Shown in pieces: positions 21,744-41,692 of a stretch of DNA of 48,609 nucleotides. The position numbers and the translations under genes are program-made. Position 1 is the first letter of the stretch. Every line of letters begins with the position of its first letter. The stretch covers positions 1 to 48,609 of the forward strand of contig JAGAQG010000011.1 in the NCBI GenBank assembly GCA_017622875.1, read 5' to 3'. The notes beneath the pieces were generated by a model. It was not told the origin of the DNA. It saw only the letters and a list, made by a program, of their open reading frames with translations, and did no database searches. The DNA is from Lachnospiraceae bacterium (GTDB lineage: Bacteria; Bacillota; Clostridia; Lachnospirales; Lachnospiraceae).

Positions 21744-21773
21744 GAATATTTACCCTGCCTTGGAGAGATACTA
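21744..21773 (+). promoter_or_regulatory. Candidate forespore-type (sigma-G-like) promoter of the TepA-like gene
   Basis: GAATA (21744-21748), 18-base spacer, GATACTA (21767-21773), one mismatch from the sigma-G pattern GHATR-N18-CATNNTA. Start predicted near 21780, inside the loop of the hairpin at 21751-21801. A weak sigma-A alternative also exists. Confidence 0.3.
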
Positions 21774-21806
21774 AAGTTAAGTAAACAAAAAAGGCAGGGT
21801 ATTTTT
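21751..21806 (+). terminator. Hairpin after metY that sequesters the TepA-like ribosome site
   Basis: TACCCTGCCTT (21751-21761) pairs perfectly with AAGGCAGGGTA (21791-21801), 29-base loop, then TTTTT directly before ATG 21807. The right arm contains the only ribosome site (GGCAGGG), so read-through RNA would be terminated or untranslated. Confidence 0.75.
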
Positions 21807-22505
21807 ATGTCGAAAAACAGCAGCAATAAAGAAAAAAATAAAGAAGATATGAAAGAATTCGGACAGATGACTTTGGAGGATTCAAAAAGAAACTCTAAGA
21901 TTCATCTGCTGTCTATCATCGGAGAGATCGAAGGCCATGAAGTATTATCAGGCAGCAGCAAGACTACAAAATATGAGCATGTGATCCCCAGTCTTGCAGC
22001 AATAGAAGACGATGCAGAGATTGAAGGGCTTTTGATTCTGATCAATACCATTGGCGGGGATGTGGAATCGGGTCTTGCGATTGCAGAGATGATCGCATCT
22101 TTAAGCAAGCCTACAGTATCACTGGTGCTTGGAGGAAGCCATTCCATCGGTGTACCATTGGCTGTTGCATCGGATTATTCTTTTATTGTTCCTACCGGAA
22201 CCATGCTCATTCATCCGGTGAGAATGTCCGGAATGGTTATTGGGGCAAGACAGACCTATGAATATTTCCAGAGAATGCAGGATCGAATCACTGGTTTTAT
22301 TGCTGAACACAGTCAGGCGGATCAGGAAGATGTTGAGGAAATGATGATGGATACCGGATATATGACAAAGGATTTGGGAACGATTCTTGTAGGAAAAGAA
22401 GCAGTAGATGCCGGCATTATTGATGAAGTGGGAGGAATCAGAGAAGCATTTAGAAAGCTTTATCATATGATCAGGAAGGCGAACAAAGATTCGAAGAAAA
22501 ATTAG
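21807..22505 (+). CDS. ClpP-fold serine protease, TepA/YmfB-like
   Basis: The 232-residue protein has the ClpP/crotonase fold, with likely catalytic Ser113 in SHSIG and His136 in TMLIHPVR; INTIGGDVESGLAIAEMI matches the ClpP oxyanion region. It resembles B. subtilis TepA (translocation-enhancing protein, YmfB), which lies just upstream of spoIIIE there as here. It is not ClpP itself: the N-terminus is a long Lys/Asn-rich region and the IGF-loop residues of ClpP are missing. Cytosolic; target unknown. Confidence 0.85.
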   Translation: MSKNSSNKEKNKEDMKEFGQMTLEDSKRNSKIHLLSIIGEIEGHEVLSGSSKTTKYEHVIPSLAAIEDDAEIEGLLILINTIGGDVESGLAIAEMIASLSKPTVSLVLGGSHSIGVPLAVASDYSFIVPTGTMLIHPVRMSGMVIGARQTYEYFQRMQDRITGFIAEHSQADQEDVEEMMMDTGYMTKDLGTILVGKEAVDAGIIDEVGGIREAFRKLYHMIRKANKDSKKN

Positions 22506-22531
22506 ACAAACCTAAAAGAATGTGTTAAGAT
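22503..22531 (+). promoter_or_regulatory. Candidate sigma-A promoter of ftsK/spoIIIE
   Basis: TAGACA (22503-22508), 17-base spacer, TAAGAT (22526-22531) with TG one base upstream (extended -10). The leader of about 35 bases contains GAGG. Confidence 0.45.
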
Positions 22532-22571
22532 ATTCGGCGTAAGAAAGAATGAGTGAAAGAGGTTTGATGCT

Positions 22572-25088
22572 ATGGCGCAGACAAAAAGAGGTAAAAGTAC
22601 TTCTTCTAAAAATAAAAAAACAAATACCAAGGGGCGTTCTGCAAAGGGAAAACAGGCAGTTTCGGAAACCAATCCGGAAGTGATGAATGAAGTCATTGTA
22701 ATCTTGTTTTTTGTTCTTTGTGCACTGATGCTGCTTAGCTGCTTTGGTGTGTGCGGAAAATTTGGCAGTGCAGTCAGCAATCTGCTGTTTGGTCTGTTCG
22801 GATATCTTGCATATCTGGTACCGATTGCATTGTTTATTGGTGTTAGTTTTTTTGTGGCAAACAGAGAAAATGCAGTGGCAGTAGTAAAAGTTGCTGCCGG
22901 AGTGTTGGCGGTACTCTTGCTTAACGGATTCCTTCATGGAATTCTTGGAAATAAGGAGCTGGATTCCATAGGTGCAGCTTATGAATATTGTGCACTTCAT
23001 CATGACGGTGGTGGGATTATCGGCGCAGCAGTTTACGGTCTTCTGGCAGGGGCTTTTGGCACTGTGGGAGCGTTTATTTTGTTGATTGCCTTGTTTATCG
23101 TGGCTGCAGTCATCATTAGCGAAAAGTCTTTTGTAAAAAGTGTAAAAAAAGGCGGGCAGAAAGTATATGATACTGCCAGAGAAGAAAATGTTCGCAGAAA
23201 AGAGCGGGCGGAAGAAAGACGGGAACGTCGTCTGGAAAGAAAAGCATCTGGTGTGAGTATGGACGTAAAACTCTCAGCGGATGCAGTACATAAAGAAAAT
23301 ATGACAGAGCTTACAGGACTTGAAGAAACTGCAAGAGAGGAGATTTTCTTAAGTCCTGAAATGACAGAAATCCCTGTACAAAAATCTGTATCAAACGTTG
23401 AACAGATGTCGGTAAAAGAAGAAATTCATGAAATTCCGGTCAGAATTGCAGCAGAACCTGTAATTACCCAAGAGCCGGAAATAGTTTCAGGAGTACAGGA
23501 GGAGTCTGTGACATTACAGACAGATAGAACTGTATCAAGACGCAGAAAGAAGGAAACTGCAGAAGCTGTAATTCCGGAAATTACAGAGCCTGTCACGGAG
23601 CAAAAGCAGTATCAGTTTCCGCCGCTTCGTCTGCTGACACCGCCAAAAGCAGGAGCAAAAAAAAATTCAGCAGGCCAGCTTCGTGAGACAGCAGCTAAAT
23701 TACAGCAGATTTTAAAAGATTTTGGTGTAAATGTAACAGTGACGGATGTAAGCTGCGGTCCTACTGTTACAAGATATGAGCTTCAGCCGGACCATGGAGT
23801 GAAGGTAAGTAAGATCTTAGCCCTTGCTGATGATATCAAGTTGAATCTTGCGGTAGCAGATATTCGTATTGAAGCACCGATTCCGGGAAAAGCAGCAATC
23901 GGTATTGAAGTGCCAAATAAAGAAAATTCTACTGTAACTCTTCGGGAACTGCTGGCATCAGAGGAGTTTGACAATCATTCCTCTAATCTTGCATTTGCGG
24001 TTGGAAAGGATATTGGCGGGAAAACGATCATTACAGATATTGCAAAAATGCCACACCTTCTGATTGCTGGTGCTACAGGTTCCGGTAAATCAGTATGTAT
24101 TAATACACTCATAATGAGCCTTTTATATAAAGCGTCGCCAGAAGATGTAAAACTGATTATGGTGGATCCGAAGGTAGTTGAGCTTAGTACATATAATGGA
24201 ATTCCACATTTATTGATTCCGGTTGTAACTGATCCGAAAAAAGCAGCCGGAGCCTTAAACTGGGCAGTTGCAGAAATGACCAGACGTTACCAGCTTTTTG
24301 CAGAATACCAGGTACGTAATTTACAGGGATACAATGAGAAAGTCAAAAGCATTGAAATGCTGGAAGATGAAGATAAACCACAGAAGCTTCCACAGATCGT
24401 CATTATTGTAGATGAGCTTGCAGACCTTATGATGGTAGCTCCTGGTGATGTAGAGGATGCTATCTGCCGTCTGGCTCAGCTTGCCAGAGCAGCAGGAATC
24501 CATCTGATCATTGCCACACAGAGACCATCAGTCAATGTTATTACAGGTCTGATCAAAGCAAATATGCCGTCCAGACTTGCCTTTGCCGTATCTTCAGGTG
24601 TGGATTCCCGTACGATTCTGGATATGAATGGTGCAGAGAAACTGCTTGGAAAGGGTGATATGCTCTTTTATCCATATGGTTATCCAAAGCCTGTGCGTAT
24701 TCAGGGGGCTTTTGTATCTGATGATGAGGTAAATGCGGTTGTAGAATTTTTAAAAGCGCACAATGATGCAGCAGCCGCAAATACAGAGATCGAAGAACAT
24801 ATGAAAAAGCAGCAGACTGCTGGTGCCGCTACAGGCAAATCAGGAGCTGATGACTCCGCAGGGGGCAATGACCCGTTATTTGCAGAGGCTGGAAAATTCA
24901 TTATCGAAAAAGAAAAAGCTTCCATTGGAATGCTCCAGAGGTGGTTCAAAATTGGCTTTAACAGAGCTGCAAGAATCATGGATCAGCTGGCAGAAGCAGG
25001 AGTAGTCGGTGAAGAGCAGGGAACAAAGCCTAGGGAAATCCTAATGTCAGCGGAGCAGTTTGAGCAGTATATTGACGAATATTTATAA
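22572..25088 (+). CDS. DNA translocase FtsK/SpoIIIE
   Basis: The 838-residue protein pumps chromosomal DNA through the division or sporulation septum. It has a basic N-terminus; four membrane segments within about residues 38-185; a charged, low-complexity linker (about 190-350); the FtsK alpha/beta motor with Walker A GATGSGKS near residue 500 and the Walker B region [11 protein letters not shown]; and a C-terminal gamma winged helix (about 770-838) that reads FtsK-orienting DNA sites. The 838-residue length fits the SpoIIIE/SftA size class, and four membrane segments fit SpoIIIE. The TepA-like gene directly upstream repeats the B. subtilis order. Confidence 0.95.
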
Positions 25089-25101
25089 AGGACAGATTAC
25101 T

Positions 25102-25983
25102 ATGCAATGTAAAAAATGTGGTACGGAGATTAAAGAGGGATGTCTGTTTTGCCACAATTGTGGGGAAGCAGTCCAGATAGTGCCGGATTATGAGCCGGAG
25201 ATGGATGAACTTCAAATCAGAATTGCCAGTGCCCAGACAAAACTTCCGAATAAACCGACGGTAAGACAACTGGAGGAAAAGACGGAAGAAAGCATTGAGG
25301 TGTTAAAAAAGGTCAATTGGAAGATGGTAGGGATTCTTTTTGTCGTCATTTTGGGAATATGCGCTTTTGCATTTGCCTATGGATCCGTTTTAAAGAATCA
25401 GGAACCGACAGCACTGCAGCAGCAGCCTGAGATTTCAAATGTAAAAGAGCAGAGTGCCTACATTCCAAAGCCGGAATTCAGCTATCCGGCTGGTGGCTAT
25501 TCATTTTATATTTCTATAGAATTACATTCAGAGGTTGAGGGAACGATTTATTACACGTTAGACGGATCCATACCAAATGAATCTTCCTATAAATACACAG
25601 TACCAATCGAACTGCCCAAAGGCACCACAGTTGTTCGTGCCTTTGTAATGGATTCTAATGGAAACAGCAGTGACATTGCATCGGAGGTGTATGATATAGA
25701 ATTTGGGGCGCCGGATCCGCCGACGATCATTCCTGAGTCAGGCGAGTATGTAGGAGAACATTATGTGCGTATTCTAGTGCCGGACAATTGTGTGGCATAT
25801 TATACACTGGATGGAAGCAGGCCAAATGAATCTTCTGAAATTTATACTGGAGAATTTCTGATGCCTGAGGGAACGACAACGGTCCATGCGTTTGTGGAAG
25901 ATGAATACGGTATTATGTCAGAAATTAGTACAGTGACTTATCAGTGTACGAATCCAATGACCGGAAGTACAGAAACAGAATAG
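25102..25983 (+). CDS. Zinc-ribbon membrane protein with two chitobiase-type C-terminal (CHB_HEX_C) repeats
   Basis: The 293-residue protein has an N-terminal zinc ribbon with two CxxC pairs (CKKCGTEI and CHNCGE, residues 3-20). A cytoplasmic linker follows, then one membrane segment (about residues 74-94, VGILFVVILGICAFAFAYG). Two external repeats of about 70-75 residues follow, each with YYTLDGS-PNESS and a V-AFV-D-G core, as in the beta-sandwich domain of chitobiase C-termini. Such repeats probably bind surface glycan or protein; no enzyme domain is present. ATG 25102 has AAGGACAG, 14 bases after the translocase stop, so the pair may be co-transcribed. Confidence 0.7.
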   Translation: MQCKKCGTEIKEGCLFCHNCGEAVQIVPDYEPEMDELQIRIASAQTKLPNKPTVRQLEEKTEESIEVLKKVNWKMVGILFVVILGICAFAFAYGSVLKNQEPTALQQQPEISNVKEQSAYIPKPEFSYPAGGYSFYISIELHSEVEGTIYYTLDGSIPNESSYKYTVPIELPKGTTVVRAFVMDSNGNSSDIASEVYDIEFGAPDPPTIIPESGEYVGEHYVRILVPDNCVAYYTLDGSRPNESSEIYTGEFLMPEGTTTVHAFVEDEYGIMSEISTVTYQCTNPMTGSTETE

Positions 25984-26002
25984 AACTAGCAGAATCTTAC
26001 GG

Positions 26003-26038
26003 AAAAGATGATTTTTTTATTGAAAAGTCATCTTTTTT
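26003..26038 (+). terminator. Terminator after the zinc-ribbon gene
   Basis: AAAAGATGA (26003-26011) pairs with TCATCTTTT (26028-26036), extended inward by T/A pairs, then a T run. It overlaps the -35 of the nfnAB promoter. Confidence 0.85.
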
Positions 26039-26048
26039 GTTATATGAT
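26020..26048 (+). promoter_or_regulatory. Sigma-A promoter of nfnAB
   Basis: TTGAAA (26020-26025), 17-base spacer, TATGAT (26043-26048). The -35 is in the upstream terminator and the -10 is inside the Rex operator. Confidence 0.65.
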
Positions 26049-26054
26049 TAACAA
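26037..26054 (+). promoter_or_regulatory. Rex operator on the nfnAB promoter
   Basis: TTGTTATATGATTAACAA matches all 12 fixed positions of the Rex consensus TTGTTA-N6-TAACAA and covers the -10. Rex is encoded at 14385-15020. Confidence 0.8.
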
Positions 26055-26119
26055 TAGTGTAGTGTGGTTAAAGATTGCAAAAATGCAGAGAAAGCTCCAC
26101 ATTACCCAGGAGGCAGATT

Positions 26120-27007
26120 ATGTTTAAAATTACAAAAGCAGAACAGTTAACATCCAATATCTATTTAATGGATGTAGTAGCTCCAAGAGTTGCGAAATCA
26201 TGTAAACCTGGCCAGTTCATCATCGTCAGATTAAATGAAACAGCAGAACGTATTCCGCTGACAATCTGTGACTATGATGCAGAAGCAGGTACAGTAACAA
26301 TTGTATTCCAGCCAGTAGGTGCATCTACACATAAAATGACATCTTTAAAAGCTGGTGATTCCTTTGCAGACTTCGTAGGTCCTTTAGGATGTCCATCAGA
26401 ACTCTGCGATGAAGATATTGAAGAATTAAAGAAGAAAAAAATCCTTTTCGTAGCAGGTGGTGTTGGTACAGCTCCTGTATACCCACAGGTAAAATGGCTC
26501 CATGAACACGGCGTAGCAGCTGATGTTATCGTTGGTGCAAAAACAAAAGATCTTTTAATTCTTGAAAAAGAAATGGAAGCAGTTGCAGGAAATCTTTATG
26601 TGACAACAGATGATGGTTCTTACGGACGTCATGGTATGGTTACAGCTGTTATTGATGAATTAGTTGCAGCCGGAAATCAGTATGACCTCTGTGTTGCAAT
26701 CGGCCCAATGATCATGATGAAATTCTGCTGCTTAACAACAAAGAAATACGGCATCAAGACTATCGTAAGCATGAACCCGATCATGGTTGATGGTACAGGT
26801 ATGTGTGGTGCATGTCGTCTCGTTGTAGGTGATGAAGTTAAATTCGCATGTGTAGACGGACCTGAATTTGACGGCCATTTAGTTGACTTTGATCAGGCGA
26901 TGAAACGTCAGCAGATGTACAAGACTCAGGAAGGCAGAGCAATGCTGAAATTACAGGAAGGTGACACACATCACGGCGGATGTGGAAACTGCGGAGGTGA
27001 CGAATAA
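26120..27007 (+). CDS. nfnA: NfnA, FAD/iron-sulfur subunit of NADH-dependent ferredoxin:NADP+ oxidoreductase
   Basis: The 295-residue protein is of the ferredoxin-NADP reductase-like group (also annotated as sulfide dehydrogenase/GltA subunit). It has an FAD-binding beta-barrel (GQFIIVRLNETAERIPLTICDY), a nucleotide-binding part (VAGGVGTAPVYPQVKWL) and a C-terminal [2Fe-2S] cysteine cluster in GMCGACRL and FACVDGPEF. With NfnB it forms the electron-bifurcating transhydrogenase that couples NADH and reduced ferredoxin oxidation to NADPH formation. ATG 26120 is preceded by AGGAGG; the frame extends further upstream but overlaps the leader. Codon use suggests high expression. The stop overlaps the nfnB start by one base (TAATG). 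Confidence 0.9.
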   Translation: MFKITKAEQLTSNIYLMDVVAPRVAKSCKPGQFIIVRLNETAERIPLTICDYDAEAGTVTIVFQPVGASTHKMTSLKAGDSFADFVGPLGCPSELCDEDIEELKKKKILFVAGGVGTAPVYPQVKWLHEHGVAADVIVGAKTKDLLILEKEMEAVAGNLYVTTDDGSYGRHGMVTAVIDELVAAGNQYDLCVAIGPMIMMKFCCLTTKKYGIKTIVSMNPIMVDGTGMCGACRLVVGDEVKFACVDGPEFDGHLVDFDQAMKRQQMYKTQEGRAMLKLQEGDTHHGGCGNCGGDE

Positions 27008-28395
27008 TGGCAGACGTATTAAAGAGAGTACCTGTAAGAGAACAGGAACCACAGGTTCGTGCAAAAAACTTTGATGAAGTATGTCTTGGATACAATGCTG
27101 AAGAAGCTGTAGAAGAAGCTCAGAGATGTATCGGATGTAAAAATGCAAAATGTGTACAGGGATGTCCTGTATCTATCAACATTCCAGGATTTATCGCTCA
27201 CGTAAAAGAAGGAAACTTCGAAGAAGCATATAAAGTAATCGGTGAATCCAGTGCCCTTCCGGCAATCTGCGGACGTGTTTGTCCACAGGAAAGCCAGTGC
27301 GAAGGTCAGTGTATCCGTGGTAAAAAAGGTGATCCTGTTTCTATCGGTAAACTGGAAAGATTCGTAGCTGACTGGGCGAGAGAAAACAATATCAAACCAG
27401 TTGGAGCAGAAGAAAAGAACGGCAAAAAAGTTGCTGTCATTGGTTCTGGCCCAGCAGGTCTTACATGTGCAGGTGACCTTGCAAAATTAGGTTACGATGT
27501 TACAATTTTTGAAGCACTCCACAAAGCAGGTGGTGTACTTGTTTATGGTATCCCTGAATTCCGTTTACCAAAAGACGGTGTTGTTCAGCCGGAAATCGAA
27601 AACGTAAAAGCACTTGGTGTTAAGATTGAAACTGATGTAGTAATCGGTAAATCTGTTACAATCGATGAATTAATGGAAGAAGAAGGCTTTGATGCTGTAT
27701 TTATCGGATCTGGTGCAGGTCTTCCTAAGTTCATGGGTATCCCAGGAGAACAGGCAAATGGCGTATTCTCTGCAAACGAATACTTAACACGTAACAACTT
27801 AATGAAAGCATTTGATGAAAGTTATGATACACAAATCGCTGCAGGTACAAAGGTAGCTGTTGTCGGCGGCGGTAACGTAGCAATGGATGCTGCAAGAACA
27901 GCTCTTCGTCTTGGCGCAGAAGTACATATTATCTACAGACGCAGCGAAGAAGAACTTCCAGCTCGAGTTGAAGAAGTTCATCATGCAAAAGAAGAAGGAA
28001 TCATTTTCGACCTTCTTACAAATCCTACAGAAATCCTTGCTGACGAAAATGGCTGGGTTAAAGGTATCAAATGTGTGAAGATGGAACTTGGCGAACCGGA
28101 TGCTTCCGGCAGACGTCGTCCAGTTGAAGTCGCAGGCAGCGAATTCGAAATTGAAGTAGATACAGTGATCATGTCCCTTGGTACATCTCCAAACCCATTG
28201 ATTTCCTCTACTACAAAGGGCCTTGAAATCAATAAGAGAAAATGTATCGTAGCAAGTGAAGAATGCGGTGCAACTTCAAAAGAAGGTGTTTACGCAGGCG
28301 GTGACGCAGTTACAGGAGCTGCAACTGTAATCCTTGCAATGGGTGCTGGTAAAGCTGCTGCCAAAGGTATTCACGAATACCTTTTAAATAAATAA
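27007..28395 (+). CDS. nfnB: NfnB, NADPH-binding subunit of the Nfn complex (GltD/GltA-like)
   Basis: The 462-residue flavoprotein has an N-terminal double [4Fe-4S] domain (CIGCKNAKCVQGCP and CGRVCPQESQCEGQC), an FAD site GSGPAGLTCAGDLAKLGYDV near residue 147, and a second Rossmann site VVGGGNVAMDAARTALRLGA near residue 286 for NADPH. It resembles the small subunit of glutamate synthase, and such proteins are often called GltA, but there is no large glutamate synthase partner and the one-base overlap with nfnA identifies the Nfn pair. Confidence 0.92.
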   Translation: MADVLKRVPVREQEPQVRAKNFDEVCLGYNAEEAVEEAQRCIGCKNAKCVQGCPVSINIPGFIAHVKEGNFEEAYKVIGESSALPAICGRVCPQESQCEGQCIRGKKGDPVSIGKLERFVADWARENNIKPVGAEEKNGKKVAVIGSGPAGLTCAGDLAKLGYDVTIFEALHKAGGVLVYGIPEFRLPKDGVVQPEIENVKALGVKIETDVVIGKSVTIDELMEEEGFDAVFIGSGAGLPKFMGIPGEQANGVFSANEYLTRNNLMKAFDESYDTQIAAGTKVAVVGGGNVAMDAARTALRLGAEVHIIYRRSEEELPARVEEVHHAKEEGIIFDLLTNPTEILADENGWVKGIKCVKMELGEPDASGRRRPVEVAGSEFEIEVDTVIMSLGTSPNPLISSTTKGLEINKRKCIVASEECGATSKEGVYAGGDAVTGAATVILAMGAGKAAAKGIHEYLLNK

Positions 28396-28421
28396 TTTTT
28401 AGCTAAAAAGGAAAGAAACTG

Positions 28422-29534
28422 ATGAAAAGAAGATTATTAATGCTCCTCGCTTCTGTAGCAATGGTTGCAGCATTGACAGCTTGCGGCGGTAAAGAAGAAG
28501 CAGTTGAAGAAGTAACTGTGGAAATCGAAGAAGAAGCAGCAGAAGTAGAAGAAGTGGTTGAAGAGGAAGAACCGGTAGTTGAAGATGTAATTCCGGAAGG
28601 ATACTACCGCAGTGAATTAACAAATGAGATTATCTCTGAAGAATTAAAAAATCAGAGACCAATTGCTGTTATGGTTGATAATGAAAAAACTGCGTTACCA
28701 CATTACGGTTTAACTCAGGCAGATGTTGTTTATGAACTTATGAACAGTACAAAGAACGATGAAATTACTCGTTTTATGGCACTTGTAAAAGACTGGGATG
28801 CAATTGAACAGTTCGGAAGTATTCGTTCTTTACGTCCTACAAACGTTCTGCTTGCAAATGAATGGAATGCAATCATCTGTCATGATGGTGGCCCTTTCTA
28901 TATCAATGATTACCTTGCATTACCTGCAAGTGATCACATTTCCGGATACTTCGGACGTGTAAATAATGGTAAAGCAAGAGAATTTACAGAGTATATTTTA
29001 ACAGGTGAAATCGAAAAATATACAAGCAGATTAGGCATTGGAACAGAATACAATGAATACTATGAAGGTTCTCACTATCAGTTCGCTACAGAAGCAAATC
29101 CAGTGTTATTAGAAGAAGTTTATGAAGATTTTGCAAAAGAAGCAACATTTATCGATCTTCCATTCAAACACAACGGATCTGAACTGACATATAATGCAGA
29201 AGACGGATTATATTACTATTCTGAATATGGCAGCGCGCATGTTGACCCACAGAATGGCAACAAACAGTTATCATTTAAGAATGTAATCATCCAGAGAGTT
29301 ACATACAGTCAGTTAGATGAAAATGGATATTTAATCTTCAACTGTATCGGTGAAGGACAGGAAGCAATTTACATCACAAACGGTAAGAGAATCAATGTGA
29401 CATGGACAAAGAGAAGTGATACAGAACCTACACGTTACTATGACGGAATGGGTGATGAAATCACAATCAACACAGGTAAAACATATGTTGCATTTGTAGC
29501 TGACCAGAGATGGGATGAGCTTGTAATCAAATAA
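28422..29534 (+). CDS. Lipoprotein with DUF3048 (YerB-like) domains
   Basis: The 370-residue exported lipoprotein has an N-terminal signal (KRRLLMLLASVAMVAALTAC) with lipobox LTAC (lipid Cys21), then an extremely Glu/Val-rich acidic linker (about residues 25-60), then a DUF3048 region with RPIAVMVDNEKTALPHYGL, QFGSIRSLRPTN and ICHDGGP, and the C-terminal part ending GKTYVAFVADQRWDELVIK. This family is common in spore-formers; its biochemical role is not established. It is 26 bases after nfnB and may be co-transcribed. Confidence 0.85.
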   Translation: MKRRLLMLLASVAMVAALTACGGKEEAVEEVTVEIEEEAAEVEEVVEEEEPVVEDVIPEGYYRSELTNEIISEELKNQRPIAVMVDNEKTALPHYGLTQADVVYELMNSTKNDEITRFMALVKDWDAIEQFGSIRSLRPTNVLLANEWNAIICHDGGPFYINDYLALPASDHISGYFGRVNNGKAREFTEYILTGEIEKYTSRLGIGTEYNEYYEGSHYQFATEANPVLLEEVYEDFAKEATFIDLPFKHNGSELTYNAEDGLYYYSEYGSAHVDPQNGNKQLSFKNVIIQRVTYSQLDENGYLIFNCIGEGQEAIYITNGKRINVTWTKRSDTEPTRYYDGMGDEITINTGKTYVAFVADQRWDELVIK

Positions 29535-29558
29535 GTCAGTTCCTATTTAAAGCATCAT

Positions 29559-29587
29559 GAATAATTAAAACCTCTGATTCATAGATT
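29559..29587 (+). promoter_or_regulatory. Sigma-E-like promoter of spoIVA
   Basis: GAATAAT (29559-29565), 14-base spacer, CATAGATT (29580-29587): one mismatch each from the B. subtilis sigma-E elements KMATATT and CATACANT, at the correct spacing. Start predicted near 29594, in the loop of the hairpin below. spoIVA is a sigma-E gene in B. subtilis. Confidence 0.65.
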
Positions 29588-29622
29588 GTAAAAACAATAA
29601 TCGATGAATCGGAGGTTTTTTT
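29567..29622 (+). terminator. Hairpin/terminator that sequesters the spoIVA ribosome site
   Basis: 29567-29582 (AAAACCTCTGATTCAT) pairs with 29604-29619 through one T-G wobble, with an inner ATTGT/ACAAT stem, then a T run up to ATG 29623. The right arm contains GGAGG (29611-29615), the only ribosome site of spoIVA. Confidence 0.8.
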
Positions 29623-31110
29623 ATGGACAATGTTGCAAACAAAGAGTTTGATTTATACAAGGACATTCAAATGCGTACCGGAGGAGAAATTTATATCGGT
29701 GTCATTGGTCCTGTAAGAACTGGAAAATCAACCTTGATAAAGAGAATCATGGATCTTCTGGTACTTCCAAATCTTCCGGAGAGTCCGGAGAAGACAAGAA
29801 TTATGGATGAACTGCCACAAAGCGGTTCCGGGAAAACGATTACGACAACGGAGCCAAAGTTTTTACCTAAAGAAGCATTTGAGCTAAACCTGTCAGAGGA
29901 TGTACGGCTTAAAGTACGGCTCATTGACTGCGTTGGATATATGGTGACTGGTGCTGCGGGACATATGGAGGATGATCAGCCTCGTCTTGTGAAAACACCC
30001 TGGTCAGAAGAAAAGATTCCGTTTGTCAAGGCAGCAGAGCTTGGAACCAGAAAGGTAATGCAGGAGCATTCTACGATTGGGATTGTGGTGACCTGTGATG
30101 GATCTTTCTCGGACCTCCCAAGGGAGAATTACATAGAAGCAGAAAATCGGACCATAGCAGAGATGAAAAAACTCGGCAAGCCATTTATTGTGATTTTAAA
30201 TACCAGCCGCCCATATGCGGAGGCAACAGGGCAATTGGCAGAAGAGCTTGAAACTCAGTATCAGGTTCCAGTTCTGCCGTTCAATTGTGAACAGCTTCGA
30301 AAAGAAGATATCTTTAAAATGTTTGAGAATATTTTGAAGGAATTTCCGATTACCGATGTGGAGTTTTATATACCAAAATGGGTGGAAATGCTTTCCGATG
30401 ATTCTGAGATTAAAAAGGATTTACTGGAACAGATAAAATTGCTTATGGGGAGAATTAACCGTGTGCAGGATATTGTACCTGAAAACATGCAGATGGAGTC
30501 TCCATATGTCAGCAAGGTAAAAATAGAGAATCTGAATTTATCCAATGGAAAAGTCAGAGTGATCCTGGAGATTGATGAACAGTATTATTATGATATTTTA
30601 AGTAAAATGACTGGGGAAAACATTGCGGGGGAGTACGAACTGATGAAAATGATACGGGAGCTTGCGGCAATGAAAAAAGAATATGCCAAAGTTCAGTATG
30701 CTATCGATGCGGTAAGGCAAAAAGGATACGGTGTGGTTATGCCAATCAAAGAAGAAATCACATTGGAAGAGCCTGCAATCGTCAAACAGGGCAGCAAATA
30801 CGGTGTCAAAATCAGGGCAACGGCTCCTTCTATCCATCTGATTCGTGCAAATATCGAAACAGAAATCTCTCCGCTGGTGGGAAATGAAAGTCAGGCTACA
30901 GATTTGATCAGATACATTGGGCAGAATGTGAAGGAAGATGGAAGTATCTGGGAAACCAATATCTTTGGGAAATCTATTGAAGAGCTTGTGGAGGATGGAA
31001 TTAAATCAAAGGTATATCAGATTGGGGAAGAGAGTCAGGTAAAATTACAGGAAACGATGCAGAAGATTGTAAATGATTCTAATGGCGGAATGGTCTGCAT
31101 TATTATATAG
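29623..31110 (+). CDS. spoIVA: Stage IV sporulation protein A
   Basis: This 495-residue ATPase polymerises on the forespore surface and forms the base layer of the spore coat. The N-terminal TRAFAC-like domain has Walker A GPVRTGKST (Lys35) and LIDCVGYMV; the middle and C-terminal domains are typical, and the protein ends GGMVCIII, matching the conserved hydrophobic C-terminus. Length is equal to B. subtilis SpoIVA (492). It shows the organism forms endospores. The ribosome site GGAGG lies in a hairpin arm, seven bases before the ATG. Confidence 0.97.
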   Translation: MDNVANKEFDLYKDIQMRTGGEIYIGVIGPVRTGKSTLIKRIMDLLVLPNLPESPEKTRIMDELPQSGSGKTITTTEPKFLPKEAFELNLSEDVRLKVRLIDCVGYMVTGAAGHMEDDQPRLVKTPWSEEKIPFVKAAELGTRKVMQEHSTIGIVVTCDGSFSDLPRENYIEAENRTIAEMKKLGKPFIVILNTSRPYAEATGQLAEELETQYQVPVLPFNCEQLRKEDIFKMFENILKEFPITDVEFYIPKWVEMLSDDSEIKKDLLEQIKLLMGRINRVQDIVPENMQMESPYVSKVKIENLNLSNGKVRVILEIDEQYYYDILSKMTGENIAGEYELMKMIRELAAMKKEYAKVQYAIDAVRQKGYGVVMPIKEEITLEEPAIVKQGSKYGVKIRATAPSIHLIRANIETEISPLVGNESQATDLIRYIGQNVKEDGSIWETNIFGKSIEELVEDGIKSKVYQIGEESQVKLQETMQKIVNDSNGGMVCIII

Positions 31111-32611: not shown

Positions 32612-32633
32612 AATAGAAAAATGTGGTAAAATT

Positions 32634-32665
32634 AACGGCACTTCCTGTCAGAGGTGCCGTTTTTG
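32634..32665 (+). terminator. Terminator after the purine permease
   Basis: AACGGCACTTC (32634-32644), loop CTGTCA, GAGGTGCCGTT (32651-32661), T run. Confidence 0.9.
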
Positions 32666-32688
32666 TGTTCTTTTCTTGGATAAAAGTA

Positions 32689-32717
32689 TTGTAAAATCTG
32701 TTGGTTTCGGATAGAAT
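32689..32717 (+). promoter_or_regulatory. Promoter of rnhA
   Basis: TTGTAA (32689-32694), 17-base spacer, TAGAAT (32712-32717). Predicted start near 32724, leaving a 31-base leader with AGGAGG. Confidence 0.6.
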
Positions 32718-32754
32718 AGAACAATGGTGGGAGCACCGATAAACAGGAGGTAAT

Positions 32755-33240: not shown

Positions 33241-33243
33241 AAG

Positions 33244-33372
33244 ATGTTCTTAACTACATTGGTACAGACTTTATTCAAAATGGTGATTCTGATGGCAGTA
33301 TGTGTATGCGGCATTCTGGCCGGAAAGAAGTTACGCGACAGAAAAGACGCGAAATCTGAAAAGGAAGCGTAA
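33244..33372 (+). CDS. Small membrane protein, 42 residues
   Basis: A short frame with a good ribosome site (AGAGG, 33233-33237, spacing about 6) between rnhA and alaS. It has one hydrophobic helix (about residues 9-27, ending CGILAG) followed by a strongly basic/acidic tail KKLRDRKDAKSEKEA. It lies in the same transcript as its neighbours, with no gap for a promoter. I recall similar short proteins ending GKKLRDRKDAK-like in related clostridia, without known function; that is memory, not a search result. Confidence 0.6.
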   Translation: MFLTTLVQTLFKMVILMAVCVCGILAGKKLRDRKDAKSEKEA

Positions 33373-33390
33373 AAATTGGAGGAGACAAAA

Positions 33391-36030: not shown

Positions 36031-36062
36031 GAAAATTTCTGCGGAAATTTGTGGAAAATCAC

Positions 36063-36091
36063 TTGACAAGAGAAAGGTCGTACCATATAAT
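36063..36091 (+). promoter_or_regulatory. Sigma-A promoter of rpsU
   Basis: TTGACA (36063-36068), 17-base spacer, TATAAT (36086-36091): two perfect elements. Start near 36098. Confidence 0.9.
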
Positions 36092-36118
36092 AACGAGAGT
36101 GCAATAAAAATACCCATA

Positions 36119-36146
36119 CAGTTGTATTATGCACAATACACAACTG
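36119..36146 (+). promoter_or_regulatory. Stem-loop in the rpsU leader
   Basis: CAGTTG TATT (36119-36128), loop ATGCAC, AATA, a two-base bulge, CAACTG (36141-36146). It lies directly before the purine-rich ribosome-site region and about 20 bases after the predicted start. Confidence 0.5.
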
Positions 36147-36168
36147 GAGGGAGGTTAGGTGTGATTCT

Positions 36169-36345
36169 ATGTCAAATGTAATCGTAAAAGAAAACGAGAC
36201 TTTAGATAGCGCTTTACGCAGATTCAAGAGAAACTGTGCAAAAGCAGGTATTCAGCAGGAAATTCGTAAGAGAGAACATTACGAAAAACCAAGCGTAAGA
36301 CGTAAGAAAAAATCTGAAGCAGCTAGAAAACGTAAATACAATTAA
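36169..36345 (+). CDS. rpsU: 30S ribosomal protein S21
   Basis: A 58-residue basic protein starting [19 protein letters not shown], with the conserved [20 protein letters not shown] stretch and the basic tail [15 protein letters not shown]. This is the standard bS21 sequence for clostridia, where it contacts the 16S 3' end near the anti-Shine-Dalgarno. The frame is short but unmistakable. It has its own strong promoter and terminator, so it is a single-gene unit. ATG 36169 has AGGTG upstream within a longer purine-rich region. Confidence 0.95.
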
Positions 36346-36354
36346 TTTTGTGCA

Positions 36355-36386
36355 AAAAGGGACTGGAAAAAATTTCAGTCCCTTTT
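36355..36386 (+). terminator. Terminator after rpsU
   Basis: AAAAGGGACTG (36355-36365) pairs with CAGTCCCTTTT (36376-36386); A and T tracts lie on both sides. Confidence 0.9.
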
Positions 36387-36461
36387 CTAAATTACATGAG
36401 TGTATGAAGTTTTTGTAAAGAAACTTTAAGACAGGGTAAGAAAACAAAAGAGGGATTTTTC

Positions 36462-36950
36462 ATGGATTTATTGAATGAATTACTTTCTAATCGTGTTCTG
36501 GCAGCCGGTATTTGCGGTTGGGCATCGGCACAGGTTATCAAAGCAATTTTATATACGATTCTGCACAGGGAATTTTCTCTGGAACGTCTGTTTGGCGATG
36601 GGGGAATGCCGAGCGGACATTCCGCGACTGTCAGTGCCATGGCAATGATGTCGCTGCTTCACTATGGGGTTGGATCCTTTGAATTTGCAATCAGCGCGAT
36701 GCTTGCGATTATCGTCATGCATGACGCCATGGGTGTACGTCTGGAGACTGGAAAGCAGGCTGAAGTTATTAATGAATTAACTACTCTGATTGAAGAGATT
36801 GTGGATGATTTTAACAATGAGGAGACCTGGGAAAAGAAGTTCCAAAAGGTATTTTCAGAGGATAAATTGAAAGAATATGTAGGCCATACACCGTTACAGG
36901 TGGCAGCAGGCGGTGCATTAGGACTGCTGATCGGATGGTTGATGCATTAA
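36462..36950 (+). CDS. Divergent PAP2-family membrane protein (YuiD/DUF212)
   Basis: The 162-residue membrane protein has GWASAQVIKAILY, then the GDGGMPSGHSATVSAMA motif that corresponds to the phosphatase motif of PAP2 enzymes, and AIIVMHDAMGVRLETGKQAEVIN. It has three to four membrane helices, with a last one ending GGALGLLIGWLMH. The family is annotated as divergent phosphatidic acid phosphatase; activity is unproven. AGAGGG precedes the ATG. Confidence 0.88.
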   Translation: MDLLNELLSNRVLAAGICGWASAQVIKAILYTILHREFSLERLFGDGGMPSGHSATVSAMAMMSLLHYGVGSFEFAISAMLAIIVMHDAMGVRLETGKQAEVINELTTLIEEIVDDFNNEETWEKKFQKVFSEDKLKEYVGHTPLQVAAGGALGLLIGWLMH

Positions 36951-36968
36951 TGAAATAGTAGTTCTTTT

Positions 36969-36997
36969 TTGAAAAAACTCCTACTAAACTGTACAAA
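36969..36997 (+). promoter_or_regulatory. Candidate sigma-A promoter of the first DD-carboxypeptidase
   Basis: TTGAAA (36969-36974), 17-base spacer, TACAAA (36992-36997). Start predicted near 37004, just before the right arm of the hairpin at 36972-37018. Confidence 0.45.
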
Positions 36998-37018
36998 GGT
37001 TTATATGGGAGTTTTTTT
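36972..37018 (+). terminator. Hairpin/terminator that sequesters the DD-carboxypeptidase ribosome site
   Basis: AAAAAACTCC (36972-36981) pairs with GGAGTTTTTT (37008-37017), 26-base loop, T run up to GTG 37019. The right arm contains GGGAG (37007-37011), the ribosome site. Confidence 0.7.
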
Positions 37019-38227
37019 GTGAGAAAAAATATCATTTGGATTTTAGTAATGACCATGCTGTTGTCGATTTTTTATCCATTTACAGTATGGGCGGCGGAGG
37101 ATGTGTCTGAAAGCAATGTGGAGGAAAATGCTGAAGGAGCAGCCATTGGCATTGCAGCGCCGCATGCGGTTTTAATGGAAGCGTCTACAGGGACGGTTCT
37201 TTATGAAAAGGATGCTCATACCGCAGTGCCGCCGGCAAGTGTGACGAAGATCATGACGATGCTTCTTATTTTTGAGGCATTGGAGGAGAACAAGATTAAA
37301 CTGGAGGATACAGTCGTTGTATCTGAAAAAGCAGCATCTATGGGCGGTTCGCAGGTTTATTTGGAACCCAATGAACAGCAGACTGTGGATACCATGTTAA
37401 AATGTATTGCCATTGCAAGTGCGAACGATGCCTATGTGGCAATGGCAGAATTTGTTTCCGGAAGTGAAGAGGCCTTTGTAAATAAAATGAATGAGCGTGC
37501 CAAAGAACTTGGTATGGAAAATACACATTTTATGAACTGCAATGGATTGGATGTAGATGGCCATGAAATCAGCGCTTATGACGTGGCATTAATGTCCAGA
37601 GAACTGCTGATAAATCATCCGCAGGTACATAATTACTGTACAGTCTGGATGGATACGATCATACATAATACAGCCAAAGGAAGTCAGGAATTTGGGCTGA
37701 ATAATACAAATAAATTAATCAGACAATATGAATATAGTACGGGTTTAAAAACCGGTTCTACCAGCAAAGCGGGATTCTGTGTTTCTGCGACTGCGAAAAA
37801 GGCAGATATGGAGCTGATCGCTGTCATTATGAATGGAGAGACCAGTAAATCCAGATTTTTAGATGCAACGACACTTTTAAATTATGGCTATGCAAATTAT
37901 CAGATTTATCGTGATACCGATGCAGAAAGAGAAAAGTTATATGAAATTCCAGTAAAAGCAGGAGTAGAGACCAGTATTGTGCCTGTGTATGAAAAAGAAT
38001 TTGTTTTTCTATTAATGAATGGAGAAAGTCTGACATCTATTGAAAAAAGGCTGGAAATCCCGGAAGAGCTGCAGGCACCGATCGAAGAAAATCAGGTACT
38101 GGGGACATTGAGCTATTATCACGGGAATGAAAAACTGGGAGAAATAAATATTCTCGCAGACAAAGCAATTGCAGCGGCAAAATATTCGGATTATGTGAAA
38201 AGAGTGTGGCTTGCATGGATGATGTAA
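37019..38227 (+). CDS. D-alanyl-D-alanine carboxypeptidase (DacF/PBP5-type)
   Basis: The 402-residue exported protein trims D-Ala from peptidoglycan side chains. A signal peptide (residues 1-26, ending VWAA) precedes the penicillin-binding core with Ser74-x-x-Lys77 (SVTK), Ser134-Ala-Asn136 and Lys244-Thr-Gly (KTG). A PBP5-type C-terminal beta domain (about 290-370) and a hydrophobic end helix (VKRVWLAWMM) follow, as expected for a membrane anchor. It starts with GTG seven bases after GGGAG. A second homologue lies at 40478. A role in sporulation or vegetative wall trimming cannot be decided. Confidence 0.93.
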   Translation: MRKNIIWILVMTMLLSIFYPFTVWAAEDVSESNVEENAEGAAIGIAAPHAVLMEASTGTVLYEKDAHTAVPPASVTKIMTMLLIFEALEENKIKLEDTVVVSEKAASMGGSQVYLEPNEQQTVDTMLKCIAIASANDAYVAMAEFVSGSEEAFVNKMNERAKELGMENTHFMNCNGLDVDGHEISAYDVALMSRELLINHPQVHNYCTVWMDTIIHNTAKGSQEFGLNNTNKLIRQYEYSTGLKTGSTSKAGFCVSATAKKADMELIAVIMNGETSKSRFLDATTLLNYGYANYQIYRDTDAEREKLYEIPVKAGVETSIVPVYEKEFVFLLMNGESLTSIEKRLEIPEELQAPIEENQVLGTLSYYHGNEKLGEINILADKAIAAAKYSDYVKRVWLAWMM

Positions 38228-38258
38228 CTTATGGTAAGATGGTGTGCGGAGGCGCGTT

Positions 38259-39050
38259 ATGTTCGAGACAGTACATTATCAGATTCAATCAAAGAAAATA
38301 AAATCTCCTGTAACAATTGTGATGCTTGCAGATCTGCACAATCACACTTATGGAGAGAATAATAAGATTCTATTAGGAGAAATTGAAAAGAATTCTCCGG
38401 ATTTTGTATGTCTTGCGGGTGATATGCTTATTGGACATTCACAGATTCCTTATGAAATTGGGCAAAAGGCAGTGATGGAGCTTGCGAAAAAATATCCCGT
38501 ATTCTATGGACTTGGAAATCATGAAGCCCGCATGAGACAGGACGTGGAAATTTACGGTACGCGTTATGAAGAATATATGAAGCCGTTAAAAGCTCTTGGA
38601 GTAAAGGTGCTTGTGAATGAACAGGCAGACTTCGCAGTGGGAGAAAATAAATTTCGAATTTATGGATATGATCTTCCACCAAAATATTTTAAAAAATTTA
38701 ACCGATATGTGTTTGGAGAAGCACAGGTAGAAGGGGAACTTGGAAAATGTGAGACTTCGGAGGAAATCTACCACATTCTTCTGGCGCATAATCCGGTCTA
38801 TTTTAAACAATATGCTGCATGGGGAGCTGACCTGACTTTATCAGGGCATCTGCATGGAGGGATTATCAGGCTGCCGCTGATTGGAGGAATTATCACCCCT
38901 CAGGCAAAACTGTTCCCGCGATACAGCGCAGGAAACTATAGGATTGGCGAGAAACAGATGATTGTTTCAAGGGGACTTGGAACCCACACAATACCGATTC
39001 GTTTTAACAATAAGCCGGAATTATCAGTTATTCATTTAAGTCCGGTATAG
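38259..39050 (+). CDS. Metallophosphoesterase (YkuE/YaeI-like)
   Basis: The 263-residue calcineurin-like phosphoesterase has metal-binding motifs in order: LADLHNHTYG, CLAGDMLIG, GLGNHEAR, LLAHNPVYF and LSGHLHGGIIRLP. There is no clear signal peptide. GGAGG lies six bases before ATG 38259, so the GTG at 38244 is not used. Related proteins hydrolyse lipid headgroups or cyclic phosphates; the substrate is unknown. It is 31 bases after the carboxypeptidase and 23 bases before scpA. Confidence 0.88.
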   Translation: MFETVHYQIQSKKIKSPVTIVMLADLHNHTYGENNKILLGEIEKNSPDFVCLAGDMLIGHSQIPYEIGQKAVMELAKKYPVFYGLGNHEARMRQDVEIYGTRYEEYMKPLKALGVKVLVNEQADFAVGENKFRIYGYDLPPKYFKKFNRYVFGEAQVEGELGKCETSEEIYHILLAHNPVYFKQYAAWGADLTLSGHLHGGIIRLPLIGGIITPQAKLFPRYSAGNYRIGEKQMIVSRGLGTHTIPIRFNNKPELSVIHLSPV

Positions 39051-39073
39051 ATTTACAGAGAAATGGAAAAATA

Positions 39074-39835
39074 ATGGCATTACCAGTAAAGATAGAAAAT
39101 TTTGAGGGTCCCTTAGACCTGCTGCTGCATCTGATTGATGTAAATAAATTTAATATTTTTGATATTCCAATCGTGGAAATTACAGAGCAGTATCTGGAAT
39201 ATGTTCGCAATATGGAGACAAAGGACTTAAATGTCATGAGTGAATTTCTTGTCATGGCAGCAACACTTCTGGAAGTCAAAGCAAAAATGCTCCTGCCGGC
39301 AGAAGTTAATGAAGAGGGGGAAGAAATTGACCCTCGTGAAGAACTTGTTCAAAAGCTTTTAGAATATAAGATGTATAAATATATGTCTTATGAGCTGAAA
39401 GACCGTATGCAGGATGCTGCGAAAGCGATGTACAAAGAGCCGACGATTCCGGAAGAAGTAGAAAGTTATATAGAGCCGGTGGATATGGAAAAGCTGCTGG
39501 GAGACCTTACATTAAAAAAACTCAATGACATTTTTCAGTCGATTATGAAACGACAGAATGATAAAGTTGACCCGATTCGAAGCAAGTTCGGAAAGATAGA
39601 AAAAGAAGAGGTATCTTTGGAGGAAAAGCTGGATTTTGTGGAAAATTATGCGATTGAGCACGGAACTTTTTCTTTTAAGAAGATGTTGGAGGGACAAAAG
39701 AGTAAGATGCAGGTGGTGGTAACTTTCCTTGCAATCCTGGAACTTATGAAAACGGGGAAAATTGTGATTCGACAAGAAGAAACATTTGGAGATATTATCA
39801 TTACATCCGCAAAGTTTTATAAAAAAGAAGCGTAA
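39074..39835 (+). CDS. scpA: Segregation and condensation protein A
   Basis: The 253-residue kleisin links the SMC heads. It starts with the family motif LPVKIENFEGPLDLLLHLID, then ITEQYLEYV and FLVMAATLLEVKAKMLLP, and ends with the winged-helix segment VVVTFLAILELMKTGKIVI-Q. Length is standard. It is followed 18 bases later by scpB, as is usual. Confidence 0.96.
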   Translation: MALPVKIENFEGPLDLLLHLIDVNKFNIFDIPIVEITEQYLEYVRNMETKDLNVMSEFLVMAATLLEVKAKMLLPAEVNEEGEEIDPREELVQKLLEYKMYKYMSYELKDRMQDAAKAMYKEPTIPEEVESYIEPVDMEKLLGDLTLKKLNDIFQSIMKRQNDKVDPIRSKFGKIEKEEVSLEEKLDFVENYAIEHGTFSFKKMLEGQKSKMQVVVTFLAILELMKTGKIVIRQEETFGDIIITSAKFYKKEA

Positions 39836-39853
39836 GAGATATCCGGAGGAACT

Positions 39854-40423
39854 ATGGAATTACAGAAAATTGAGGCGGCAATCGAGGCCATTCTCTTTAC
39901 TATGGGAGAAGCGGTGGAGGTAGAAAAGATTGCCATTGCCATTGAACATGATAAAGATACAACGAGAAAGATCATCCGAAATATGATGGATAAATATAAT
40001 GCAGAAGATCGGGGAATCCGTGTCATCGAGCTGGAGGATTCTTTTCAGCTCTGCTCGAAAACAGAATATTATGATGTGCTGATTAAAGTCGCGAAGCAGC
40101 CAAAGAAGTATTCGTTGACGGATGTACAGCTGGAGGTTCTTTCCATAACTGCCTATAAGCAGCCGATTACGAGAGCAGAGATTGAAAAAATTCGTGGTGT
40201 AAATTCGGATCATGCCATCAATAAGCTGGTAGAATACGGACTGATTAAAGAAGTAGGCCGTTTAAATGCACCGGGCCGTCCAATGCTGTTTGGAACCACA
40301 GAGGATTTCCTTCGCAACTTTGGCGTCACTTCTCTTGAAGATTTACCATCTCTTTCAGCAACAGAGATTGCAGACTTTGAGGCAGAAGCGGAAGAAGAAG
40401 TTCAGATTCGTCTGGGTGTCTAA
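39854..40423 (+). CDS. scpB: Segregation and condensation protein B
   Basis: The 189-residue partner of ScpA in the SMC complex has two winged helices: IEAAIEAILFTMGEAVEVEKIA at the start, then LEVLSITAYKQPITRAEIEKIRGV and LINEVGR-like LIKEVGRLNAPGRPMLFGTT. GGAGG precedes the ATG. Gene order scpA-scpB-dacB is common in Firmicutes. Confidence 0.96.
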   Translation: MELQKIEAAIEAILFTMGEAVEVEKIAIAIEHDKDTTRKIIRNMMDKYNAEDRGIRVIELEDSFQLCSKTEYYDVLIKVAKQPKKYSLTDVQLEVLSITAYKQPITRAEIEKIRGVNSDHAINKLVEYGLIKEVGRLNAPGRPMLFGTTEDFLRNFGVTSLEDLPSLSATEIADFEAEAEEEVQIRLGV

Positions 40424-40451
40424 CATATAAACAAACATTTCCTCATAAACT
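40423..40451 (+). promoter_or_regulatory. Sigma-E-like promoter of the second DD-carboxypeptidase
   Basis: ACATATA (40423-40429), 14-base spacer, CATAAACT (40444-40451), 7 of 8 to the sigma-E -10 CATACANT; the -35 matches 5 of 7. Start predicted near 40458, in the loop of the hairpin at 40439-40472. Confidence 0.5.
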
Positions 40452-40472
40452 CTATAAAAAGTTTTTGAGGAA
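40439..40472 (+). promoter_or_regulatory. Stem-loop that sequesters the dacB ribosome site
   Basis: TTCCTCA-T-AAACT (40439-40451) pairs with AGTTT-T-TGAGGAA (40460-40472), one T-T mismatch, eight-base loop. The right arm holds GAGG, seven bases before ATG 40478. There is no T run, so it would block translation rather than transcription. Confidence 0.7.
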
Positions 40473-40477
40473 TATCT

Positions 40478-41692
40478 ATGAATAGATTGAGAAAACTTTC
40501 AAAACAGGTCATAGCAGGAATCCTTTGTATGGTTCTGATGCAATGTCCTGTTTTTTTGCTGCGGGCAAATGGAGCGGAGACACCAGAAAGTCTATATTCC
40601 ATGGGAGCAGTTCTGATGGATGCTGATTCCGGAAGAGTTTTGTTTTCGAAGAATGCCAGAGAATCTTATGCTATGGCAAGCACTACAAAAATCATGACCT
40701 GTATTCTTGCGTTAGAGCTTGGAGAGGATGATCAGATTGTAACATTTTCTGATACAGCAGCAGCGCAGCCGGATGTACAGATGAATGCGAAGGCGGGGGA
40801 ACAGTACTATTTAAAAGATCTGCTGTATTCAGTTATGCTGGAATCCCACAATGACAGTGCAGTGGCAGTTGCAGAGGCAATTGGAGGTGATGTAGAATCT
40901 TTTGTAAAACTTATGGACAAAAAGGCAGAGGCAATTGGCTGCACAAAAACCAATTTTGTAACACCCAATGGTCTGGATGGCACAGATGAAAGCGGTGATC
41001 ATTGTACCACTGCTGAAGAACTGGCAATGATATTAAGATACTGCATTACAATTTCTTCAAAGGCTGAAGAATTTATAAACATTACAGGAACTTCTTCGTA
41101 TGAATTTCAGGAGCTGAATGGAAAACGTTATGTCAGCTGCAATAATCATAATGCGCTTTTGAATTCCTATGAAGGCGCATTTACGGGAAAGACCGGATTT
41201 ACAGGAAAGGCAGGATATTGTTATACCGGTGCAGTTAAAAAAGGGGAAAAGACGATGATTATTGCCCTTTTAGGAGCTGGATGGTATCCTCATAAGACAT
41301 GCAAATGGAAAGATGCAAAAAAACTTCTGGATTATGGGTTTGAAAACTATGACTATCAGACGATTGGAACGCAGAACTGGGAATTTCCGAATATCCCGGT
41401 AGAGGGTGGAATGGAAGAAACGGTAGCTGTCGCAACTGACGCTGGAACATTCTCGTATTTGCTGGGAAAAGATGAGACTGCCAGATGTAAGGTGGAGTAT
41501 GCAAAAGTGCTGCAGGCGCCTGTGGCGAAGAATACAGTGATAGGAACGATTACCTATGAACTGGAAGGAAAAATTATAGAGCAATTTAAGATATATACAG
41601 TAGAAGAAAATGAAAAATCTACATTTTGGAATGTGGTAAAGAAATGGCTAAGAATAATACAAGATTTTGTGCTAAACTTGATAAATAAATAA
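40478..41692 (+). CDS. D-alanyl-D-alanine carboxypeptidase (DacB/DacF-type)
   Basis: The 404-residue exported penicillin-binding protein has a signal peptide (1-33), Ser68-x-x-Lys71 in ASTTKIM, S-H-N in MLESHNDSAVAV and KTG in FTGKTGFTGKAG. A C-terminal beta domain and an amphipathic anchor (VVKKWLRIIQDFVLNLINK) follow. In B. subtilis dacB lies near scpAB and acts in spore cortex synthesis under sigma-E; the sigma-E-like promoter here agrees. It shares domain order with the protein at 37019, suggesting an old duplication around scpAB. Confidence 0.92.
   Translation: MNRLRKLSKQVIAGILCMVLMQCPVFLLRANGAETPESLYSMGAVLMDADSGRVLFSKNARESYAMASTTKIMTCILALELGEDDQIVTFSDTAAAQPDVQMNAKAGEQYYLKDLLYSVMLESHNDSAVAVAEAIGGDVESFVKLMDKKAEAIGCTKTNFVTPNGLDGTDESGDHCTTAEELAMILRYCITISSKAEEFINITGTSSYEFQELNGKRYVSCNNHNALLNSYEGAFTGKTGFTGKAGYCYTGAVKKGEKTMIIALLGAGWYPHKTCKWKDAKKLLDYGFENYDYQTIGTQNWEFPNIPVEGGMEETVAVATDAGTFSYLLGKDETARCKVEYAKVLQAPVAKNTVIGTITYELEGKIIEQFKIYTVEENEKSTFWNVVKKWLRIIQDFVLNLINK

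Follow-up and report, generated by a model that had tools for sequence, protein, structure and literature searches.

The 48,609-nucleotide (nt) stretch of DNA analysed here (the window; positions 1 to 48,609 of contig JAGAQG010000011.1, assembly GCA_017622875.1) belongs to a Lachnospiraceae bacterium whose assembly comprises 2.74 Mb in 69 contigs and is 87.7% complete. It carries, all on the forward strand, four genes in whose leaders a predicted hairpin covers the Shine-Dalgarno (SD) sequence: spoIVA (29623..31110; NCBIfam TIGR02836, 632.6 bits against a cut-off of 459.9), a ClpP-like protease gene (21807..22505) and two D-Ala-D-Ala carboxypeptidase genes, dac1 (37019..38227) and dac2 (40478..41692). 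The ClpP-related NCBIfam matches of the protease all lie below their cut-offs and those of both carboxypeptidases below equivalog cut-offs, so the names dacF, dacB and TepA are to be taken as resemblances; the last is the label given to the protease gene in a preliminary description of this DNA and is kept below as tepA.

In RNAfold predictions all four leaders place the SD-like stretch in the 3' arm of a hairpin, as the preliminary description had stated. When the duplex of the SD segment with the upstream 48 nt was scored against dinucleotide shuffles, p was 0.0005 for spoIVA (the floor of the test), 0.0025 for tepA, 0.0035 for dac2 and 0.0050 for dac1. At spoIVA the 5' arm (29567..29585) lies in the spacer and the start of the -10 of a putative sigma-E-type promoter, read from the sequence as a -35-like ATAA (29561..29564) and a -10-like CATAGATT (29580..29587) at ATAN-N15-CATA spacing (29561-29587), and the 3' arm (29601..29619) contains the SD GGAGG (29611-29615) and a T-run. 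With the predicted 5' end taken as the seventh nucleotide past the -10-like element, transcription would start at 29594, and the predicted unpaired probability of the SD is 0.00 in read-through RNA versus 0.36 in the gene's own transcript. At tepA, the general sigma-G/F consensus points to a candidate promoter with a -35-like GAATA (21744..21748) and a -10-like GATACTA (21767..21773; predicted start 21780); the 5' arm, carrying the anti-SD, lies inside the spacer (21751..21761), the 3' arm with the SD-like stretch (21791..21801) is followed by a T-run and the ATG at 21807, and the unpaired probability is 0.01 in read-through RNA versus 0.71 in the own transcript. A similar GAATA-N18-CATACTA was made out by eye at a tepA locus of a relative, L103.

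The promoter of dac1 is a possible one of forespore sigma type, with a -35 TTCTT (36962..36966) and a -10 TACTAAACTG (36982..36991); its 5' arm spans 36971..36990, its 3' arm 36998..37018 includes the SD GGGAG (37007-37011) and a T-run, and the predicted start is 36998. At dac2 a -35-like ATAT (40425..40428) and a -10-like CATAAACT (40444..40451), again at ATAN-N15-CATA spacing (40425-40451), accompany a 5' arm at 40439..40451 and a 3' arm at 40460..40472 with GAGG (40467-40470) and no T-run; with a predicted start at 40458, the SD is predicted unpaired at 0.13 in read-through RNA versus 0.77 in the own transcript. The proposal that each promoter would start transcription between the two arms is thereby borne out, as a prediction, at tepA, spoIVA and dac2, where the start falls within the loop, but at dac1 the start coincides with the base at which the 3' arm begins. 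The stem is followed by a T-run in three of the four hairpins (all but dac2), which therefore resemble terminators too; these three are missing from an intrinsic-terminator scan because its loop limit was 8.

The arrangement is conserved at spoIVA among the nearest relatives. These were sampled as the best 80 of 579 spoIVA loci in named genomes (loci bear L numbers below), which represent nearest relatives, mostly titled Lachnospiraceae, rather than the whole family; in a quick protein tree the window SpoIVA is sister to all 80, on a long branch and with unsure placement. Leaders were usable at 77 of the 80 loci (L029, L052 and L062 have none, though they are still counted among the 80 in the E<=-14 tally below), and the MAFFT alignment, which showed shifted arms and two misplaced rows (L021 and L071), was not used for pair counts. 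At least four of the five SD nucleotides are paired in 72/77 leaders, and ATAN-N15-CATA, a -35 and a CATA -10 separated by exactly 15 nt, is present in 71/77. By count this spacing agrees with that published for sigma-E promoters, in which an 8-nt and a 10-nt element stand 12+/-1 apart (PMC517825). All five SD nucleotides pair into the 15-nt promoter spacer in 68 of these 71 leaders, i.e. the anti-SD is written in the spoIVA promoter spacer. The predicted start falls in the loop in 61/71 and in the 3' arm in 10/71, giving predicted own-transcript leaders of 20-27 nt, and predicted SD exposure rises from a median of 0.10 in read-through RNA to 0.50 in RNA from the own start, with an increase in 72 of 73 cases.

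There are two main classes of arms, CCTCCTG.../...GCAGGAGG and CCCCTTC.../...GAAGGGG, and the structure is likewise kept in a third class and in the window's leader, such that the letters of the arms differ by lineage and the pairing is retained. Spacer entropy is 0.37 bits at pairing positions versus 1.50 elsewhere in class 1 (33 distinct spacers) and 0.93 versus 1.34 bits in class 2 (26 distinct), and in the quick tree class 1 arms seem to have arisen within class 2. Five near-relative leaders do not pass the pairing test (L019, L027, L031, L040 and L075), and L024 passes it with a weak fold (-6.3). The hairpin is present in L074, from Kineothrix alysoides. In L019 and L040, both Parablautia, the spoIVA leader is longer and has a new SD and another hairpin; the old 3' arm TATGGAAGGGG is kept and the 5' arm has decayed.

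To these leaders were added the best-matching 30 loci for each of several other genes, including the organism's own gene for tepA, dac1, dac2 and cwlD; the sigG loci were located by tblastn, and the cwlD set consists of distant sequences (45% identity for the best relative), some of them probably paralogous amidases. Co-variation of the arms was assessed by a swap test, in which the pairing of each 3' arm with its own upstream region was compared with its pairing to upstream regions from the remaining leaders of that gene. Self pairing beats swapped pairing for spoIVA (p 2e-4, n=76), cwlD (4e-4, 26), sigG (0.002, 29), dac1 (0.007, 26) and tepA (0.010, 28), p values being uncorrected over seven sets, and 327 neighbouring ORFs (open reading frames) used as controls show no effect (mean rank 0.493, with about 15% of control pairs computed). 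Hairpins at E<=-14 occur in 70/80 spoIVA, 7/30 sigG, 7/30 dac1, 5/30 cwlD and 5/30 tepA leaders versus 16/348 neighbouring ORFs, the latter unannotated and possibly including false ones. Within the cwlD-like leaders that bear the device, L260, L268 and L271 show by eye ATAN-N15-CATA across the 5' arm. In the sigG leaders L283, L285 and L297, also by eye, a -10-like CATCATT is complementary to AATGATG directly before CGGAGG, and L283 has CCTCC in the promoter spacer; these three would correspond, in compact form, to the read-through hairpin that has been proposed at Bacillus subtilis spoIIIG.

A device that guards against read-through is expected behind co-directional genes. Across seven leader sets, hairpins at E<=-12 were found behind 100/201 co-directional and 8/43 divergent upstream ORFs (Fisher 1.6e-4), and without the family spoIVA set behind 36/131 versus 3/38 (p 0.015), counts that treat related genomes as independent and rely on upstream ORFs called by a simple script. 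Five 'divergent' spoIVA devices are probably mis-calls, since at seven device loci the longest upstream ORF is antisense but is accompanied by a long co-directional one. At gpr, where the upstream ORF is divergent in 28/30 loci, the device is present in 0/21 leaders.

The best explanation for the computed pairing, its conservation and co-variation, the promoter geometry and the orientation of neighbours is a cis-acting read-through lock, to which a probability of roughly 0.7 is assigned. The spacer of a sporulation-sigma promoter, with part of its -10, would be complementary to the ribosome site of the same gene, which follows a few dozen bases later. Polymerase arriving from a co-directional upstream gene would produce RNA with both arms, which would fold and in many cases terminate at the T-run, the SD otherwise being hidden. 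The presumed sporulation sigma factor would instead start transcription at the gene's own promoter, within the loop or the 3' arm, and its RNA, with a leader of 20-29 nt, would therefore be without the 5' arm and have a more open ribosome site; the presumed benefit in cells would be vegetative silence. On conservation, arm co-variation and promoter geometry this idea is well supported at spoIVA in the nearest relatives, and it is moderately supported at tepA and dac1 and, outside the window, at cwlD and sigG. The preliminary description had already proposed that the own transcript lacks the 5' arm and that read-through RNA is masked, which as a prediction stands well at spoIVA and moderately at tepA and dac1; its expectation that arm pairing would be conserved in relatives is likewise upheld by the swap test for spoIVA, cwlD, sigG, dac1 and tepA. 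The latter does not carry over to dac2.

A number of results weigh against this explanation or limit its reach. The pairing at dac2 is not conserved (swap test p 0.17, n=28; 2/30 leaders at E<=-14, the organism's own being one of them). The SD of tepA is poor (AAAGG/CAGGG), that of dac1 changes little between read-through (0.22) and own transcript (0.33), and the dac1 promoter is based on likeness by eye to the TTCTW-N15-TACTAWAYTG of L113 and L116. The strong hairpin is present in a minority of tepA, dac1, cwlD and sigG leaders, and the relatives are not independent of each other. Among the best 30 spoIVA leaders from outside the family, only 4/30 reach E<=-12 (L223, L225, L234 and L236) and 1/30 reaches -14, and co-variation is not significant (p 0.063, n=28); L223, at E -16.3, belongs to the same order as the window organism. 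No significant co-variation or enrichment was found at gpr, spoIIP (3/12 at E<=-12) or spoIIR (1/8), negatives that are weak because 9/30, 18/30 and 14/22 leaders, respectively, were lost for want of a start with a usable SD. In a wobble test on class 1 arms, G is faced by T 15 times and A by C 5 times, at similar rates, and class 2 suffers from register slips, so RNA pairing and a DNA dyad are not separated by it.

Two genome scans bear on the same question. In the organism's own genome, 674 SD-bearing ORFs in 712,618 bases (the window and 40 stretches) were scored as above, and 13 reach p<=0.005 versus 3.4 expected. The 13 include all four window genes, and the enrichment is to be judged outside the window, because the window was chosen for its four hairpins. 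Outside it, two of nine ORFs at p<=0.005 are sporulation genes, namely spoVAE (L192:10703; TIGR02839, above cut-off) and a CwlD-like amidase gene (L173:5222; TIGR02883, below cut-off); the others encode a PF06541 membrane protein (L211:4644), a phage-type repressor and an SbcD-like nuclease, or have no firm family (L186:1321, L183:19597) or no annotation (L194:536, L176:2919). SD-masking hairpins thus also occur at non-sporulation genes, and the plain pattern CCTC-N-CATANANT-N-GAGG is not enriched in this genome (2 matches, one of them spoIVA, versus 3 in a reversed control). In a second family member, G035, an unbiased 800-kb scan gave 6/696 ORFs at p<=0.001 versus 0.7 expected; the stretches were evenly spaced except for the last block, placed in the knowledge that it holds sigG, and sigG is not among the printed matches. 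Two of the six have a Pfam name, an acyltransferase and an M23 peptidase, and the other four have none. The M23 peptidase gene might be a sporulation gene, but SD-masking hairpins are not peculiar to sporulation, given that the G035 matches hardly include recognisable sporulation genes. The suggestion of a general way to keep sporulation genes silent was consequently too broad, in view of gpr, spoIIP, spoIIR, dac2, spoIVA outside the family and these non-sporulation genes: the original observation is confirmed, and its interpretation was right in kind and too wide in scope.

Some of the leaders met in the own-genome scan have features of their own. Upstream of spoVAE lies a 14-pair terminator-like hairpin (L192:10631-10702) with the SD in its 3' arm and no clear promoter made out, and spoVAE begins 114 nt behind a gene which, from its sequence, we take to be anaerobic ribonucleotide reductase-like. 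A 14-pair masking hairpin (L211:4563-4643), with CATATAAT just past its 5' arm, precedes the PF06541 (CmpB) gene, which is possibly an unrecognised sporulation gene. Transposase genes are known to be guarded against read-through, and SD-pairing leaders of IS66 and IS21 transposase genes (L188:18696 and L175:8636; p 0.010 and 0.0135) recall such a guard.

Among other explanations, the one that survives best, though unlikely, is that the hairpins are ordinary intrinsic terminators of the upstream genes, crowded onto the next start codon, with the SD in the stem by chance and no translational role. This would suit the T-runs at three of the four window hairpins, the run of at least five T that 50/77 spoIVA leaders have within the 10 nt preceding the start, and upstream genes that are mostly co-directional and close. 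However, the other 27/77 spoIVA leaders have at most four T in a row, and of these L009, L011 and L012 still form stems at -19 to -22 kcal/mol; there is no T-run at dac2 or in 9/10 printed sigG leaders, and the -10 and the spacer are part of the stem at fixed spacing.

Considerably less probable is a DNA dyad rather than an RNA structure, e.g. an operator overlapping the -10. SpoIIID would be a candidate protein, as B. subtilis spoIVA is controlled by sigma-E and SpoIIID, and SpoIIID represses spoIVA, cwlD and dacB in that species (PMC517825). Part of the -10 does lie within the dyad, the wobble counts do not separate RNA from DNA symmetry, and L027 keeps the dyad though its chosen start is further downstream. 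Against this, the 3' arm is the SD itself, the SpoIIID site is not known to be palindromic, the letters of the arms differ by lineage and gene as a single operator protein would hardly permit, and in the Parablautia leaders L019 and L040 the 5' arm has decayed where another SD serves. A similarly slight chance attaches to a start upstream of the 5' arm, with the hairpin always in the mRNA and damping or regulating translation as the small B. subtilis sigG hairpin does (2-4-fold by mutational test; PMC5942855), for stems of mostly -15 to -29 kcal/mol, against about -6 in B. subtilis sigG, would nearly abolish translation and the fixed-spacing promoter elements put the predicted start inside the hairpin.

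An extension of the cis-acting lock, for which the odds seem about even, is a promoter grammar of Lachnospiraceae in which the sporulation-sigma spacer is the gene's own anti-SD, a single 50-nt stretch serving as promoter, terminator and translational lock and arising repeatedly at unrelated genes (spoIVA, sigG, cwlD, tepA and dacF-like) whenever the upstream neighbour is a co-directional vegetative gene. If true, a crowded genome could silence stage-specific genes without separate terminators, conserved promoter spacers would be explained, true sporulation-gene starts would have a sequence signature in bacteria not easily brought to sporulate, and RNA-seq may overstate the expression of such genes through read-through RNA.

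Elsewhere in the window, an inverted repeat (36119-36146) lies just upstream of the GGAGGGAGG of a gene starting at 36169, presumably ribosomal protein S21-like, behind a perfect TTGACA-N17-TATAAT promoter (36063-36091).

In the literature searched, which mostly excludes subscription papers, no publication was recognised that describes the arrangement at spoIVA or in promoter spacers, and the word spoIVA is absent from the main text of PMC9045289. Related systems are known. At I-TevI of phage T4, RNA from upstream promoters sequesters the ribosome-binding site (RBS), and a late promoter just upstream yields transcripts too short for the structure; similar arrangements are stated for I-TevII, I-TevIII and segB, and RBS sequestration for e and soc (PMC2988022). 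As in T4-type masking, predicted folds here place the RBS within a stable hairpin, in its 3' arm. From its geometry the gene's own promoter is predicted to omit the 5' part of the masking structure, which would be the logic of I-TevI, but the promoters there are phage T4 late promoters, and those here are chromosomal, of sporulation-sigma type, and have the anti-SD in the spacer. At B. subtilis spoIIIG (sigG), a large hairpin has been proposed to block translation of spoIIGA-sigE read-through RNA and is absent from the sigG-promoter transcript (PMC5942855), likewise forming in read-through RNA and not in own-promoter RNA, as predicted here. That hairpin has 20+ pairs at a single gene, whereas the present one is a compact promoter-RBS dyad found at most of the near-relative spoIVA genes examined and, for other genes, in some of the leaders. 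The small B. subtilis sigG hairpin is also an RBS-occluding stem in a sporulation leader, but it lies inside the gene's own transcript (PMC5942855), in which the stems described here are predicted not to form. The logic therefore has a precedent in T4 late genes and a proposed one in B. subtilis spoIIIG, and it is the promoter-spacer version, strongest at spoIVA, that appears to be new.

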